A stretch of DNA of 34,254 nucleotides from an uncultured bacterium (GTDB lineage Bacteria; Myxococcota_A; UBA9160; SMWR01), in assembly GCA_937937315.1 (NCBI GenBank), contig CALDCK010000102.1, positions 1 through 34,254 of the forward strand, read 5' to 3'. The stretch's first letter is position 1. Every line of letters begins with the position of its first letter. Positions 16,589-23,163 of the stretch are shown one piece after another. The notes beneath the pieces are model-generated. The model saw only the letters and a list, made by a program, of their open reading frames with translations. It searched no databases and was not told where the DNA came from. The translations under genes were made by a program, and so were the position numbers.

Positions 16589-17338
16589 TCAGGCCTCGTC
16601 CTTCTTCGCCGGGCTTCGCCGCGTTCCAGAGAAGATGTAGGCGACGCCAACGCCGATCAGGTAGAGGCCCACCATCGGTACGCCGAGGAAGATCTGGCTG
16701 ACCCAGTCGGGCGGCGTGAGCAACGCCGCGAAGACGAATACGCCCAGCACTGCGTAGGGGGTGCCGCGCAGCAGCGTCGGCGCGTCGACGATGCCCGCCA
16801 ACGAGAGGAAGAACACGGCGACCGGCAGCTCGAAGGCGACTCCGAAGGCCAGGAAGAGCCGCGTCGTCAGCGCGAAGACCTCGCGCATCGTCCAGGCGGA
16901 TTGGACGAAGTCGCTGTCGAAGCTCGTGAAGAACGAGAACATCAGGGGGAAGACCTGGTAGTAGCCGAAGGAGGCGCCCCCGGCGAAGAGCAGCGTCGAG
17001 GCGACCACGAAGGGAACGATCGCGTGGCGCTCTTTCTCGTAGAGGCCGGGCGATACGAAGGCCCAGATCTGCCAGAAGATCACCGGCAGGGCCAGGACGA
17101 AGCCCGCCAGCAGGGCGCACTTCAGGTAGGTGAAGAAGATCTCGGTCGGCGCGATGGCCTGGAGGGTGCCCTGGCCGTCACCGAGTGCCGCAACCGCGGG
17201 AGCCAGCAGCAGACCGAAGATCTCCTCGCTGAAGCTCCAGGCCGCTGCGGATCCGACGACCCAGGCGATCAGGACGCGGAAGATCCGGTTTCGGAGCTCC
17301 GCCAGATGATCGGTCAGGGGCAGTCGCGTCTCATCCAT
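16589..17338 (-). CDS. tatC: Sec-independent translocase TatC
   Basis: [86 protein letters not shown]. Confidence 0.93.
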
Positions 17339-17762
17339 TGCGGTCCGGTGTGCCCGCATCGGGGGAGGAGGCGGCCGACTGCTCGTCGTCACCGGTCTCC
17401 ACGCGCGCATCGGCCCGCCCACTCGAGTCCCGGACCACACTTGCGTTGGGCTCGCCCGGCGCGGTTGCCGCGTTCACGTTGGAATCGCCGTCCGGAGCGG
17501 TGGTCGTGCTCGCGCTGGATTCTCCACCCGGGGAGGTCGATGGCCCGGCAGCGGCCCCGCCGGAGGGCTCGAGCTTCGGGGGCGCGATGTTCGCTTCGTC
17601 GGCGATGTCCGTGAACTCCTGCCGCATGTCCGTCGTCGCCCGCCGGAACTCCGCCAGACCGCGCCCCAGGCTGCGCGCGAGCTCGGGCAGCCGCTTCGGG
17701 CCGAGCACCAGCAGCCCGATCACGAAGATCACCAGCAGCTCCGTCATTCCGATGCCGAACAT
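17331..17762 (-). CDS. tatB: Sec-independent translocase TatB (TatA/B family)
   Basis: [42 protein letters not shown], amphipathic helix, long low-complexity acidic tail; overlaps the tatC start by 8 nt. Confidence 0.85.
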
Positions 17763-17815: not shown

Positions 17816-18991
17816 CTAGAGGGAGATCTGGGCCGCTGCGGCATCGTCCGAAGGCTCGGTGATCTGGGTGACGTCGGACTCGCAGACCCCCTCGGCGAGG
17901 ATCTCGAGGAAGATCGCGGTAAGAGCCGGGTCGAACTGCACCGCGGCGAAGCGCTTGAACTCTCCGAGCACGATCTCCCGCCGCAGCGCTTGCCGGTAGG
18001 GCCGGTCGCAGGTCATCGCGTCGAAGGCGTCGGCGATCGACACGATTCGGGCCTCGAAGGGGATCTCCTCCCCGGCGAGCCCGTCCGGGTAGCCGGTGCC
18101 GTCCCACCACTCGTGGTGGTGACGGATCGTGAGCGGGACGATCGCCGGCAGATCGAGGGGCCTCAGCAGGTGTGCACCGATCACCGGGTGCTGCTCGACC
18201 AGGGCCCGCTCCGAGGGCTCCAGGGCGCCGGCCCGCAGCAGCAGATCCGTCGGGACCCCGACCTTGCCGAGGTCGTGGAGGAATGCGGCGATTCGCACCC
18301 GCTCCTGGGTCTCGGTCGGAAGCTCGAGTCGCTCGGCCATCAGGCTCGAGTAGAAGGCCACCCGCCGGGCGTGACCGCGCATGAAGCGGTCCTTGGTCTC
18401 GATGGTCTCGGCGAGCACCTCGAGGAACTCGACGGTCTGATCGGGCTCGGGTCCTTCCGGCGCTCCGAGGGAGATGGCGCGATCGCCGAACAGGAGCCTC
18501 AGCTTCCCGCGCATCCCCTGGCTGCGCTGCACCTCTTCGAGGATCGCAGTCGCATCGCGGTCCCGACCGACGGCGTCGCCCAGGGCCTCGAGGAAGGTCA
18601 CGAGGCCAGTCCGGGCCTTCCGCCGCGTCAGGGCGCGGGTCACGGCGGCGGTGACCTGCACGACGTCGAAGGGCTTCTGCAGGTAGTCGCAGATGCCGTG
18701 GCGGATACCTTCGGTGGCGCTCTCGATCGACGCGCATCCGGTCACGATGATGATCTCGACGTGGGGATGCTCCTCGCGGACCGTGCGCATCACCTCCTCG
18801 CCGCCCATGCCGGGCATCTTGAGGTCGAGGGTGAGGACGTCCACGGACTCGCCGCGCAGGCACTCGAGGGCCTCGGAGCCGCTGCGCGCCCGGAGGACGC
18901 GGTAGGTCGGGGCCAGAATCATGCGCAGGGACTCGCGAGGTCCGCGCTCGTCGTCCACCACCAGGACCGTGGCCCGCCTCTCGTCTCCCAT
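17816..18991 (-). CDS. Response regulator with HD-GYP domain (predicted c-di-GMP phosphodiesterase)
   Basis: [21 protein letters not shown]...[15 protein letters not shown] (receiver), then [66 protein letters not shown]. Confidence 0.93.
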
Positions 18992-19131: not shown

Positions 19132-21288
19132 TCAGGCCGGCGCGGGCAGATCGATCAGGATCACGGTCTCTTCGCCGTCGGTGGAGGTCACCCCCAGGGT
19201 GCCTCCCTGGGCTCGCACGACGATCTCGGCGATCAGAAGCTCCAGGGACTCCTCCGGCGTCGTGCCGCCGATGGTGCCCGGCGGGCCTTCGCCGTTGGGG
19301 TCGTGGAAGCGGATCAGGATCCGGACCGTGGGGCCGGCCCCACCGCTGGCGGCGTGGTGACGGGAGGCCAGATACACGTCCCCGTGGCTCGGGACCCACT
19401 CGAGGGCGCGGCCGAGCAGGGTGTCGAGGGCGAAGCGAAGCTGGGCCTCGTCGCAGATCGCGTGGGGCTCGGTGGTGTCGAGCTCCTTCAGCACCAGCAG
19501 GCGCTGCTCGCGGATCCGGCCGCGGCGAGCGTCGAGCAGGTCCTCCAGCAGCGCGGCCACGTCCACCTGCTCGCGCTTCGGCGGGGAGAGGGTCGCGGCG
19601 TCGGCGAGCCGCTCGATCAGGACGTCGATGCGTCCGACGTCGTCGCGCACCATGTCGGCGAAGCGGTCGCGGAAGCCGGGGTCGTCGAAGCGCTCGGGCA
19701 GCGCCGCGGCGAAGGCGCGGATGGTGGCCAGAGGATTGCGGACCTCCCGGGAGAGCGCGCTCGCGAGGCGCGCCAGGGGCCCGGCGCCGTCCGTCTCCTC
19801 CCTCGCCCGGGCGAAGGAATCGCTGCCGGTCGAGGGCGCGAGAGGGGCCGGTCGATCGATCGCGGGCTCCAGCGCGGGCGGCTTCGGCGACTCGGTCACG
19901 ACCTCCGACTCCGAGGGAAGGGTCTCCTCGAGGAAGGTCTCGAGCTCGAGCTCTCCCGGGTCGCGGTTCGACCCGCCCTCGGGCGTGTCGATCAGGGTTC
20001 CGATCTCGGTCGCATCCAGGGGCTCGTCGAGGAGCGTGCCGAAGTCTCCGGCGTTCTGAGGCTCTTCGAGCAGTGTGCCGAAGTCTGCAGCATTCCGGGG
20101 CTCTTCGAGCGGTGTGCCGAAGTCTCCGGAATTCCGGGGCTCGTCGTCGATGCGGGCGCCGATATCTCCCGGGTCGAGGGGAGCGAAGGCCTCTCCTTCG
20201 AGCTGAAGGTCGTCCGAGCGGATCGGGTCGCTGGAGCAGGCGGCCAGGGTCTGCACCACCAGGGCCTCGAGCTCCGAGACGTTGCCCGGCCAGGGGTACT
20301 CCTCGAGCACGGCCAGCGCGTCCTCGCCGAAGCGCCGCGGCCGCTCCTGACGCGATGTGCACCAGTCGCGTGCGGTCTCTTCGACGATCCGACCCACCAC
20401 CAGCCCCCGTTCGCGCAGCGCCGGGAGATGGATGATCAGCGTCGACAGGCTGCGGCGGAGGCCCGGCTCGATCTGCGGCGCCTCCCGCTCGTCACAGGTG
20501 GCGATCCAGCGCACCAGGGGCGCCCTCACGGCGCCGGTAGGCAGCCCGGACTCGATCCAGCCGTGGAGGATGCGCTGGGTCGTGTTCGACAGGCGCTCCA
20601 CGCTCTCGAGCCAGATCGTCAGGGCCGGGTGGTGGCCTCGGTGGTCCCGGAGCTCGGCCAGGGCTGTCGCGATCTCTCCCGGAGTCGTGTCGGCGGAGCA
20701 GGGCACGTGGGCCAGGGAGCCGCGGCCGGAGCCGCCGAAGAGATGGATGTAGCGGGCGATCACGCTGCGGCCGGTTCCGGGCTCCCCGCAGATCAGGGCC
20801 GGCACGTCGGCGAGCTTGGGATCGAGGGCCCTCAGGAGATCGGGCAGCTCGAGGTCGCTGAACCAGCGGGCAAAGCGGGTGGAGATCGCCTCCCGACGCG
20901 CCCGCTCGGAGAGGGGGGCCGGGCCGATTCCTGCGGGGGGCGAGGCGATCTGCGCGCGCAGGGCATCAGGGCTCGGCGGATAGGCGAAGAATGCGGTGAT
21001 GCGCATGTCGAAGCAGGCCAGGGCGGCCTGCTCTGCGGCGCGGTCGCCCACCAGCAGCCAGCGCGCACGGCTGGTGCCCCGCCGAATCGAGTGGGCGAAC
21101 TGAAGCTCGAGCTCCCAATCTGCGTCCAAGGCCAGGATCACGACGTCCGGACTCGGCGCGGAGGCAAAGCGATGGTCGTCCGGAGCGCCGATCACGGCGC
21201 TCTCCGAGGCGGCAGCGAGGCGGGCAAGAGCCGCGCGCCGGCGGGGATTTCGGTCGACGATCCAAAGCAGGGGCATGGTCCGATTCAT
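19132..21288 (-). CDS. Degenerate signalling fusion: receiver-like + sigma54-type AAA+ + DHp/HATPase (predicted pseudokinase)
   Basis: [21 protein letters not shown]...[31 protein letters not shown]...[12 protein letters not shown]...HLPALRERG...[37 protein letters not shown]...; [23 protein letters not shown]. Alternative start at 21276. Confidence 0.75.
19985..20160 (-). repeat. Degenerate 39-bp (13-aa) in-frame tandem repeat in the linker of the signalling fusion
   Basis: [13 protein letters not shown] / [13 protein letters not shown] / [13 protein letters not shown] plus flanking partial units; GTGCCGAAGTC recurs at 20036, 20075 and 20114 (39-bp spacing). Confidence 0.8.
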
Positions 21289-21627: not shown

Positions 21628-23163
21628 GTGACGGTGATCGATACCGGACCCGTTGTCCGACTACGCAGCGCGACGGACCGCCCCTACGACGACGCCATCG
21701 CCGCGGCGCGCACCTGCTACTCCACGCGGGTCGTCGAAGCGGACGAGATCACCGAGCGGCAGCGGGAGAACATCGGCCCCCTCACTTTCGAGGGCGGTCA
21801 CCATACGGTGTATCAGCACGCGACCTTCGAGTTCGCGCTGTCCGGGATCTCGCGACAGCTGGTCTGGTCCTTCCTCCACGCGTTTCCCTTCTACAACACG
21901 GAGCAGCAGAGTCAGCGCTACGTGAAGCTCGACGAGCCGGCGGCTCATGTGCCGCCCTCCCTCGAGGGCGAGGCGCGCGAGCTCTACACCCGCTCGGTCG
22001 AAGGCGCCTGGCGCGGCTACGGGGAGCTCACGGAGCGGCTGCTTCCGCGCACCCAGAAGACCCTGTCCGATCTCTGGCGGCTGGATCGCCGCCAGGGCGT
22101 GGCCTTCGGCAAGAACGTCGCCCGGGAGGCGGAGAAGAAGGCGATCGAGACGGCGCGTTACGTCCTTCCGATCGGCTGCCACACCGCGATGGTCTACACG
22201 GTCTCGGGGATCGTGCTCCACCGTCTGCGTCGCATGGCCCGGGTGGGCGACGTACCCCAGGAGGCCACCGATGTGGTGGAGCGGATGGTGGCCGAGGTGG
22301 AGCGGCTCGATCCCAGCTTCTTCGGGCGGGTGGGCGAGCCGGCGCTGAAGGAGGAAGAGGTCGTGGAGCAGCGGCTCGCGCCGCCGGGACTCGGCGACCC
22401 GGCTGCGCTCGAGGCCTTCGACAAATCCCTCGACGGTCGCACGGCCCGCCTCGTCGACTGGAGCGCGCGGGCGCCGGAGGTGGTCGCGGACGCGGTGCGT
22501 CACGTGCTCGGGCGCAGCGATCTGGCCGACGACGAGGCCCTGGCCCTCGCCCTCGATCCCGGCCGGAACCCGTATCGACTGGATCGGCTGAATGTCTCCA
22601 CCCACGCGCCGATCATGCGCGCCCTGGCCCACGCCCACTTCGTGTTCCGCAAGAAGCTCTCCCACACGGCGGACTCCCAGGACCAGCGCCATCGCACGGT
22701 TCCGGGCTCGCGCCCCCTGCTGTCGCGGACGGTTCCGGGGGTCGTGGACGTCATCGAGCCCGAGCTGATCGCCGAGGACCCGGCGAGTCATGCCCTGTTC
22801 CGGGAGCTCGTCGAGGAGCAGTGGGACGTGCGGTCCCGGCTGCTCGCCCTGGGCGCCGCGCCGGAGGCCGCCCTCTACGTGCTGCCGAACGCCCTGGCGA
22901 TCCGTTTCGAGGAGTCGGGCACGCTGCTCGACCTCATCCACAAATGGACGATGCGCACCTGTCTGAACGCCCAGTGGGAGATCTGGCAGGCGTCGATGGA
23001 CGAGATCGAGCAGGTGAGGGGCGTCCATCCGTCGCTGGTGGAGCACGTCGGTCCGCCCTGCTTCGTGCGTAGTGGCCACGCCCGACCGCGCTGCACCGAG
23101 GGAACCCACTTCTGTGGCATCCCGGTCTGGCGGAGCTTCCCAGACACACAGCGAGTCATCTGA
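21628..23163 (+). CDS. Large ThyX-like (FAD-dependent thymidylate synthase family) protein, two-part
   Basis: AAARTCYSTR, GPLTFEGGHHTVYQHATFEFALSGISRQLVWSFLHAFPFYNTEQQSQRYVKL; second part NVSTHAPIMRALAHAHFVFRKKLSHTADSQDQRHRTVPGSRPLL. Alternative start ATG at 21583. Confidence 0.7.
   Translation: MTVIDTGPVVRLRSATDRPYDDAIAAARTCYSTRVVEADEITERQRENIGPLTFEGGHHTVYQHATFEFALSGISRQLVWSFLHAFPFYNTEQQSQRYVKLDEPAAHVPPSLEGEARELYTRSVEGAWRGYGELTERLLPRTQKTLSDLWRLDRRQGVAFGKNVAREAEKKAIETARYVLPIGCHTAMVYTVSGIVLHRLRRMARVGDVPQEATDVVERMVAEVERLDPSFFGRVGEPALKEEEVVEQRLAPPGLGDPAALEAFDKSLDGRTARLVDWSARAPEVVADAVRHVLGRSDLADDEALALALDPGRNPYRLDRLNVSTHAPIMRALAHAHFVFRKKLSHTADSQDQRHRTVPGSRPLLSRTVPGVVDVIEPELIAEDPASHALFRELVEEQWDVRSRLLALGAAPEAALYVLPNALAIRFEESGTLLDLIHKWTMRTCLNAQWEIWQASMDEIEQVRGVHPSLVEHVGPPCFVRSGHARPRCTEGTHFCGIPVWRSFPDTQRVI

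Follow-up and report, generated by a model that had tools for sequence, protein, structure and literature searches.

The window examined here, a stretch of 34,254 nucleotides taken at its full length, carries on its minus strand a reading frame of 718 codons plus a stop codon, free of internal stops in translation, whose product joins a degenerate NtrC-like half (receiver and AAA+ domains) to a degenerate NtrB-like half (DHp and CA domains) (Table 1). This fusion gene is followed directly by a gene for an HD-GYP response regulator and then by tatA and tatC, and a thyX-like gene lies divergently upstream. The tandem repeat within the linker encodes repeated peptides of 13 residues.

Table 1. 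Coordinates of the fusion gene, its domains and motifs, and its neighbors in the window (aa, residue numbers of the fusion protein).
Feature	Position	Strand	Basis
Pseudo-NtrC/NtrB fusion protein, 718 aa	19132..21288	(-)	Translation; orthologs in 82/91 class genomes
Pseudo-receiver domain, aa 5-118	20935..21276	(-)	AlphaFold2 fold, family alignment
Degenerate sigma54-type AAA+ domain, aa 145-366, without GAFTGA loop or Arg fingers	20191..20856	(-)	Pfam AAA_lid_14, Foldseek to NtrX/NtrC1, alignment
Walker A GEPGTGRS, Lys replaced by Arg174	20764..20787	(-)	Arg in 70/75 members
Walker B region, 11 residues	20590..20622	(-)	Translation, family residue counts
Disordered, fast-evolving linker, aa 367-500	19789..20190	(-)	pLDDT <50 at 376-499; dN/dS ~1
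39-bp tandem repeat inside linker, 3.5 copies	20012..20146	(.)	Sequence
DHp (HisKA) two-helix hairpin, aa 503-566	19591..19782	(-)	Pfam HisKA; AlphaFold2 helices 504-528 and 537-565
H-box His position, Arg514 in the window	19747..19749	(-)	Codon read, alignment
Asn518 of HExxN, kept	19735..19737	(-)	Same residue in all 56 NtrC-bearing relatives
CA (HATPase-like) fold lacking the N, G1, F and G2 boxes and the ATP lid, aa 570-716	19141..19581	(-)	Alignment, Pfam, AlphaFold2
HD-GYP response regulator, 391 aa, receiver intact; operon partner kept in the window	17816..18991	(-)	Pfam, synteny
tatA, conserved downstream neighbor	17331..17762	(-)	Synteny
tatC, conserved downstream neighbor	16589..17338	(-)	Synteny
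thyX-like gene, divergent upstream neighbor, exact start codon uncertain	21634..23163	(+)	Synteny

An AlphaFold2 model built from the window protein and related sequences (mean pLDDT 76.6, with most domain blocks above 75) comprises a receiver, an AAA+ domain, a disordered linker, a DHp hairpin and a CA domain devoid of an ATP lid. Foldseek matched the N-terminal half to NtrX, NtrC1 and NtrC4 (E 5e-17). For the C-terminal half it returned RetS and ZraS (E about 1e-12), with RetS the best structural match of the DHp-CA portion; by sequence and fold alike, the N-terminal half also matches the NtrC-type AAA+ proteins VpsR and FleQ. Among 29 family members scanned with Pfam, HisKA was recognized in 28 and AAA_lid_14 in all, and neither Response_reg nor HATPase_c matched the window protein or any of these members. 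No C-terminal DNA-binding helix-turn-helix of the NtrC type was found in the window fusion by Pfam or AlphaFold2, the AAA+ lid leading into the disordered linker and from there to the DHp. The fold of each module thus agrees with the initial annotation, which had been made from the DNA letters and had described all four modules as catalytically dead in appearance.

The residues on which that annotation relied were likewise recovered in the translation. The receiver carries Ala53 in place of the phosphoacceptor Asp, within a stretch of 11 residues; the AAA+ domain has the Walker A sequence GEPGTGRS with Arg174, an 11-residue Walker B stretch that contains LESVERL, and no GAFTGA loop; the H-box reads LSREVRNPL, with Arg514 instead of His; and the N-box is the 13-residue stretch reported. 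The list was correct but omitted Glu515 and Asn518 of the HExxN motif, both of which are kept next to Arg514.

Comparison with 75 aligned family members separated old losses from a recent one. At receiver position 53, 64 members have Gly or Ala and a single one has Asp; the acidic pair, Asp12/Arg13 in the window, is usually His-Arg (His at 12 in 61 members, Arg at 13 in 58). The beta5 Lys is missing in the window and no Lys is conserved at 102-103, leaving the fusion without the canonical receiver set of phosphoacceptor Asp, acidic pair and Lys. The Walker A position holds Arg in 70 members and Lys in 4; the GAFTGA and Arg-finger signatures are missing across all 75, and the window copy has none of the NtrC-type sigma54 activator set (Walker A Lys, Walker B Asp-Glu, GAFTGA and the Arg fingers FRxDLxYR). 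The N, G1, F and G2 boxes and the ATP lid that mark an active HisKA kinase of the NtrB/AtoS type are absent from the window copy and family-wide. The H-box His, however, is present in 62 of the 75 and was replaced by Arg in the window's own lineage. The alignment thus indicates that the receiver, AAA+ and CA losses are common to the whole family and older than the window lineage, and that the loss of the His, unlike the others, is lineage-specific; most positions conserved across the family are also kept in the window copy. The modules are therefore not all in one state of decay. For the DHp, catalytic death is not established, because Asn518, which HisKA proteins require for transmitter phosphatase activity, is kept and because a His-to-Ala mutant of the Myxococcus xanthus HisKA protein CrdS retains most of its phosphatase activity (PMC3510030).

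Six-frame searches found fusion orthologs in 82 of the 91 genomes of the window's class (73 of 80 in the window's order and 9 of 11 in the sister order) and in none of 288 sampled genomes from other classes of the phylum. Named relatives carry the NCBI labels Deltaproteobacteria or Myxococcales, and literature searches returned no paper on this fusion family. Close ortholog pairs gave dN/dS values of 0.12-0.31, and the family is under purifying selection. For the window copy, whose nearest relative (in genome G003) is 52-55% identical, dN/dS was 0.51 overall, a value that measures selection weakly since dS is near saturation; by domain it was 0.44 for the receiver, 0.47 for the AAA+ domain, 0.41 for the CA domain, 1.04 for the linker and a noisy 0.77 for the DHp, the highest among the folded domains. 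The window copy is probably maintained, on weaker evidence than the family. Class-wide orthologs, the intact frame and the close-pair dN/dS thus support the earlier proposal of a maintained pseudoenzyme as opposed to a decaying gene; decay is rejected for the family, and only for the window copy does it survive, as a weak rival. An assembly or frameshift artefact is rejected as well, since dozens of orthologs align with the frame over its whole length.

To place the gene in its context, we compared up to 8 kb of flanking sequence at 75 loci. A recurrent order emerged, in which thyX is divergent and the fusion, an NtrC-like regulator, HD-GYP, PilZ, tatA and tatC follow on one strand, some of these genes being missing in some genomes. 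The operon NtrC is canonical (receiver with LDLVMP and TKPFE, GESGTGKE, LFLDEIGE, Arg fingers and helix-turn-helix); across 54 copies (e.g., L133 9977-11353), its sigma54-contact loop reads GAFTDA in 29 and GAFTGA in 19. In the window, both NtrC and PilZ are absent. Elsewhere in the window's metagenome-assembled genome (MAG), the best matches to the operon NtrC are at most 47% identical and fall outside the operon NtrC clade, and we reject mere relocation of the gene on this basis, in a MAG only 84.5% complete. The best NtrC-like matches in the other NtrC-free genomes of the tree likewise lie outside that clade. G021 and G062 have no adjacent NtrC but a copy elsewhere in the genome, and in G025 the adjacent NtrC is split over two reading frames.

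Several further arrangements were observed. In G021 the operon is divided (L126, contig C42), with NtrC (148255) and HD-GYP (143232) both on the strand of the fusion, 14-20 kb downstream of it. The HD-GYP gene beside the fusion in G012 (L139 2557-3549) matches only from residue 180, its receiver domain having seemingly been lost. A PilZ-like gene, identified from its resemblance to a single hub sequence and from its appearance, not from a Pfam scan, lies between the regulators and tatA at 45 loci (L127-L190), and suggests c-di-GMP signaling. In the sister order the fusion is kept without NtrC, HD-GYP or PilZ, and mostly without the His and the HExxN Asn; at 9 loci of this order a conserved frame of ~190 aa follows the fusion at the usual place of NtrC (e.g., L196 9875-10543; L200 9880-10452).

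These arrangements bear on which regulator the fusion serves. The initial annotation had pointed to the HD-GYP protein, which is a plausible partner, being part of the conserved operon and having a receiver helix 1 similar to the one in the operon NtrC; as the original sole partner it is rejected, since NtrC sits between the fusion and HD-GYP in most genomes, and the main ancestral partner looks to have been the canonical NtrC now gone from the window. Helix 1 is a known surface of kinase-regulator specificity (PMC2991266), and those of the two operon receivers are alike (VRESLRMLLK in NtrC and PRESLRMIL in HD-GYP; 58% identity, versus 32% to paralogous NtrCs), so that both regulators may dock on the same DHp. 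As a test of whether the N-terminal half of the fusion is a duplicate of the operon NtrC, we compared the scores of the fusion profile against operon and unrelated NtrCs, and these were similar.

We then compared partner genes with DHp residues across genomes, of which 56 carry the operon NtrC, 17 carry none and 2 are undecided at a contig end; these are incomplete MAGs, and some gene absences may be assembly gaps. G001 was placed in the NtrC-free set, as its 70-aa downstream fragment matches the HD-GYP receiver. Where NtrC is present, the His and the Asn of HExxN are each found in 56 of 56 genomes, and the adjacent kinase-specific Glu in 50 (Ala in 4, Asp in 2). Where NtrC is absent, the His remains in 4 of 17 and the Asn in 5 of 17, having been lost in 13 and 12, respectively. 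The association of His with NtrC gave a Fisher p of 2.8e-11, computed over genomes that are not independent. Counted on the tree before the reassignment of G001, there were 6 changes of the His and 5 of NtrC; outside the sister order the His was lost 5 times, each time on an NtrC-free branch, and such branches make up 16% of tree length (p about 1e-4 if losses are scattered at random in proportion to length). Independent events are few, at 3-6 changes per trait, and paired sign tests, which are underpowered at these numbers, fell short of 0.05. The co-loss is thus strong by count yet rests on few independent events. When either regulator is counted as an operon receiver partner, the Asn is kept in 58 of 58 genomes with NtrC or HD-GYP and in 3 of 15 with neither; the window is the sole genome in the sample with such a partner and no His.

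The residues concerned have been dissected in CrdS. There, the substitutions E372A and E372D abolish kinase activity and E372A keeps phosphatase activity, whereas N375A abolishes the phosphatase (CrdA~P half-life of 47.6 min, compared to 0.7 min with wild type and 53.5 min without CrdS) and the Asn is dispensable for the kinase; H371A merely slows the phosphatase (2.6 min) (PMC3510030). In HisKA proteins the His is described as enhancing the phosphatase reaction by positioning water (PMC7005713). The pattern in NtrC-bearing genomes, with His and Asn fixed and Glu free to vary, is what a phosphatase-only DHp would be expected to leave, though the invariance could reflect docking instead of catalysis.

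Our preferred explanation, which taken as a whole we consider an evenly balanced call, is that the fusion is kinase-dead and acts on the operon regulators in a RetS-like way, as a transmitter phosphatase or a binding hub. Under this explanation the family, lacking the residues with which ATP is normally bound and hydrolyzed, would hence not autophosphorylate; in the ancestral operon, the DHp would dock the receivers of the downstream NtrC activator and of the HD-GYP c-di-GMP phosphodiesterase, acting in the manner of RetS as a transmitter phosphatase or a phosphorylation-sensing hub through the HExxN Asn helped by the His, and the degenerate receiver and AAA+ halves would serve as input or assembly modules. 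In the window lineage, NtrC would then have been deleted and the His changed to Arg while Asn518 and the HD-GYP regulator stayed. Because these two are kept, the window copy may still act on the HD-GYP regulator: most likely it would still bind the HD-GYP receiver, and it may weakly dephosphorylate it. The effect of Arg514 is not predictable with certainty because a PleC His mutant, as cited in PMC3510030, lost both activities, unlike that of CrdS.

The fusion persists in the sister order without NtrC, HD-GYP or PilZ and mostly without the HExxN Asn. This implies that its receiver, AAA+ and CA parts probably fulfil a separate function, so that part of what the fusion does would lie outside the phosphatase role. 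The same persistence favors a pure scaffold or phospho-sensor like DivL, whose DHp would bind phosphorylated receivers without chemistry and relay the signal either to the AAA+ half or to a different kinase; the window and sister-order copies without His would then display the scaffold role by itself. We regard this scaffold role alone as possible but doubtful. The pseudokinase core of DivL is indeed a phosphospecific sensor, and lineages without DivK often lack the DivL DHp-CA, a similar co-loss (PMC4211667); a scaffold alone, however, does not predict that His and Asn be invariant beside NtrC while the neighboring Glu varies. The invariance of the His with NtrC, and its loss only without NtrC, would also suit a phosphotransfer node, in which another kinase phosphorylates the DHp His in trans and the phosphate passes to NtrC, as in a histidine phosphotransfer domain. 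We find this improbable, as the Asn, a phosphatase residue that CrdS does not need for its kinase activity, is equally invariant, six genomes have lost the Glu that HisKA kinases need, and no candidate donor kinase lies within the operon.

For the window copy specifically, one may ask whether the loss of its NtrC partner has left it a relic that is itself disappearing, given that NtrC, PilZ and the His are gone and that dN/dS against the nearest relative is raised overall and above all in the DHp. In lineages without NtrC and His, the end-branch rate of the DHp relative to the rest is about twice as high (median ratio 1.13 versus 0.59). The window branch, at 0.68, is not accelerated, however, and the dN/dS of the receiver, AAA+ and CA domains is 0.41-0.47. 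Moreover, in simulated neutral drift at 0.1 substitutions per site a 718-codon frame stayed free of stops in 3% of runs, most family-wide conserved positions are kept, and the NtrC-free copies of the sister order show function without NtrC. A relic is, in our judgment, very unlikely.

The preferred phosphatase or docking hub can be set against known systems. RetS of Pseudomonas aeruginosa is a transmitter phosphatase whose HATPase is degenerate and whose HExxT is kept (PMC5992135). It shares with the fusion family a DHp with an intact HExxT/N motif, a CA domain without G-boxes and, as predicted for the family, an inability to autophosphorylate; RetS, however, is a hybrid sensor kinase that acts on the kinase GacS, whereas the fusion has NtrC-like domains, and its likely clients are the response regulators of its operon. 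The window copy has the HisKA fold, the CA domain without G-boxes and the Asn of HExxN, and every NtrC-bearing relative has the His in addition; because this His is missing, we do not file the window copy as a RetS-type member, although it may work like one. DivL of Caulobacter crescentus is likewise a pseudo-histidine kinase without a phosphoacceptor His, with co-loss of partner and DHp-CA across genomes (PMC4211667), but it keeps the N, G1, F and G2 boxes and PAS inputs, whereas the CA domain of the fusion is dead family-wide and the His is lost in some lineages only; the family therefore does not share the DivL-type trait of a non-phosphorylatable residue at this position throughout. RocA of group A Streptococcus and the ChrS pseudokinase of Corynebacterium also combine a kinase fold with a defective CA domain and modulate a two-component system, but have no NtrC-like half, and their partners are kinases. 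NtrX, NtrC1 and NtrC4 share the receiver and AAA+ folds and their order; the fusion, unlike them, has no DNA-binding domain, GAFTGA, Arg fingers or phosphoacceptor and is joined to a DHp-CA. VpsR and FleQ are DNA-binding regulators. Both are tied to c-di-GMP, and the fusion operon also carries HD-GYP and PilZ genes.

Another reading, rather unlikely, assigns to the degenerate N-terminal half (receiver and AAA+) the binding of a nucleotide or of c-di-GMP, or else a place in the NtrC ring as an inactive subunit; this would determine whether the DHp dephosphorylates two different regulators, a sigma54-type activator and a c-di-GMP phosphodiesterase. The fusion would then be a class-wide non-enzymatic hub, which in the window and the sister order would have outlived part or all of its phosphatase chemistry.

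Taken as a whole, the family is a near-universal, class-specific signaling protein from which normal ATP chemistry is gone. Its genomes amount to a natural experiment, in which partner genes and single DHp residues vanish together in several lineages while a kinase-only residue drifts even beside the partner, a pattern that sets apart, in natural genomes, the constraints of phosphatase activity or docking from those of kinase activity. The fusion family thereby offers a directly testable case of a pseudokinase outliving its partner.
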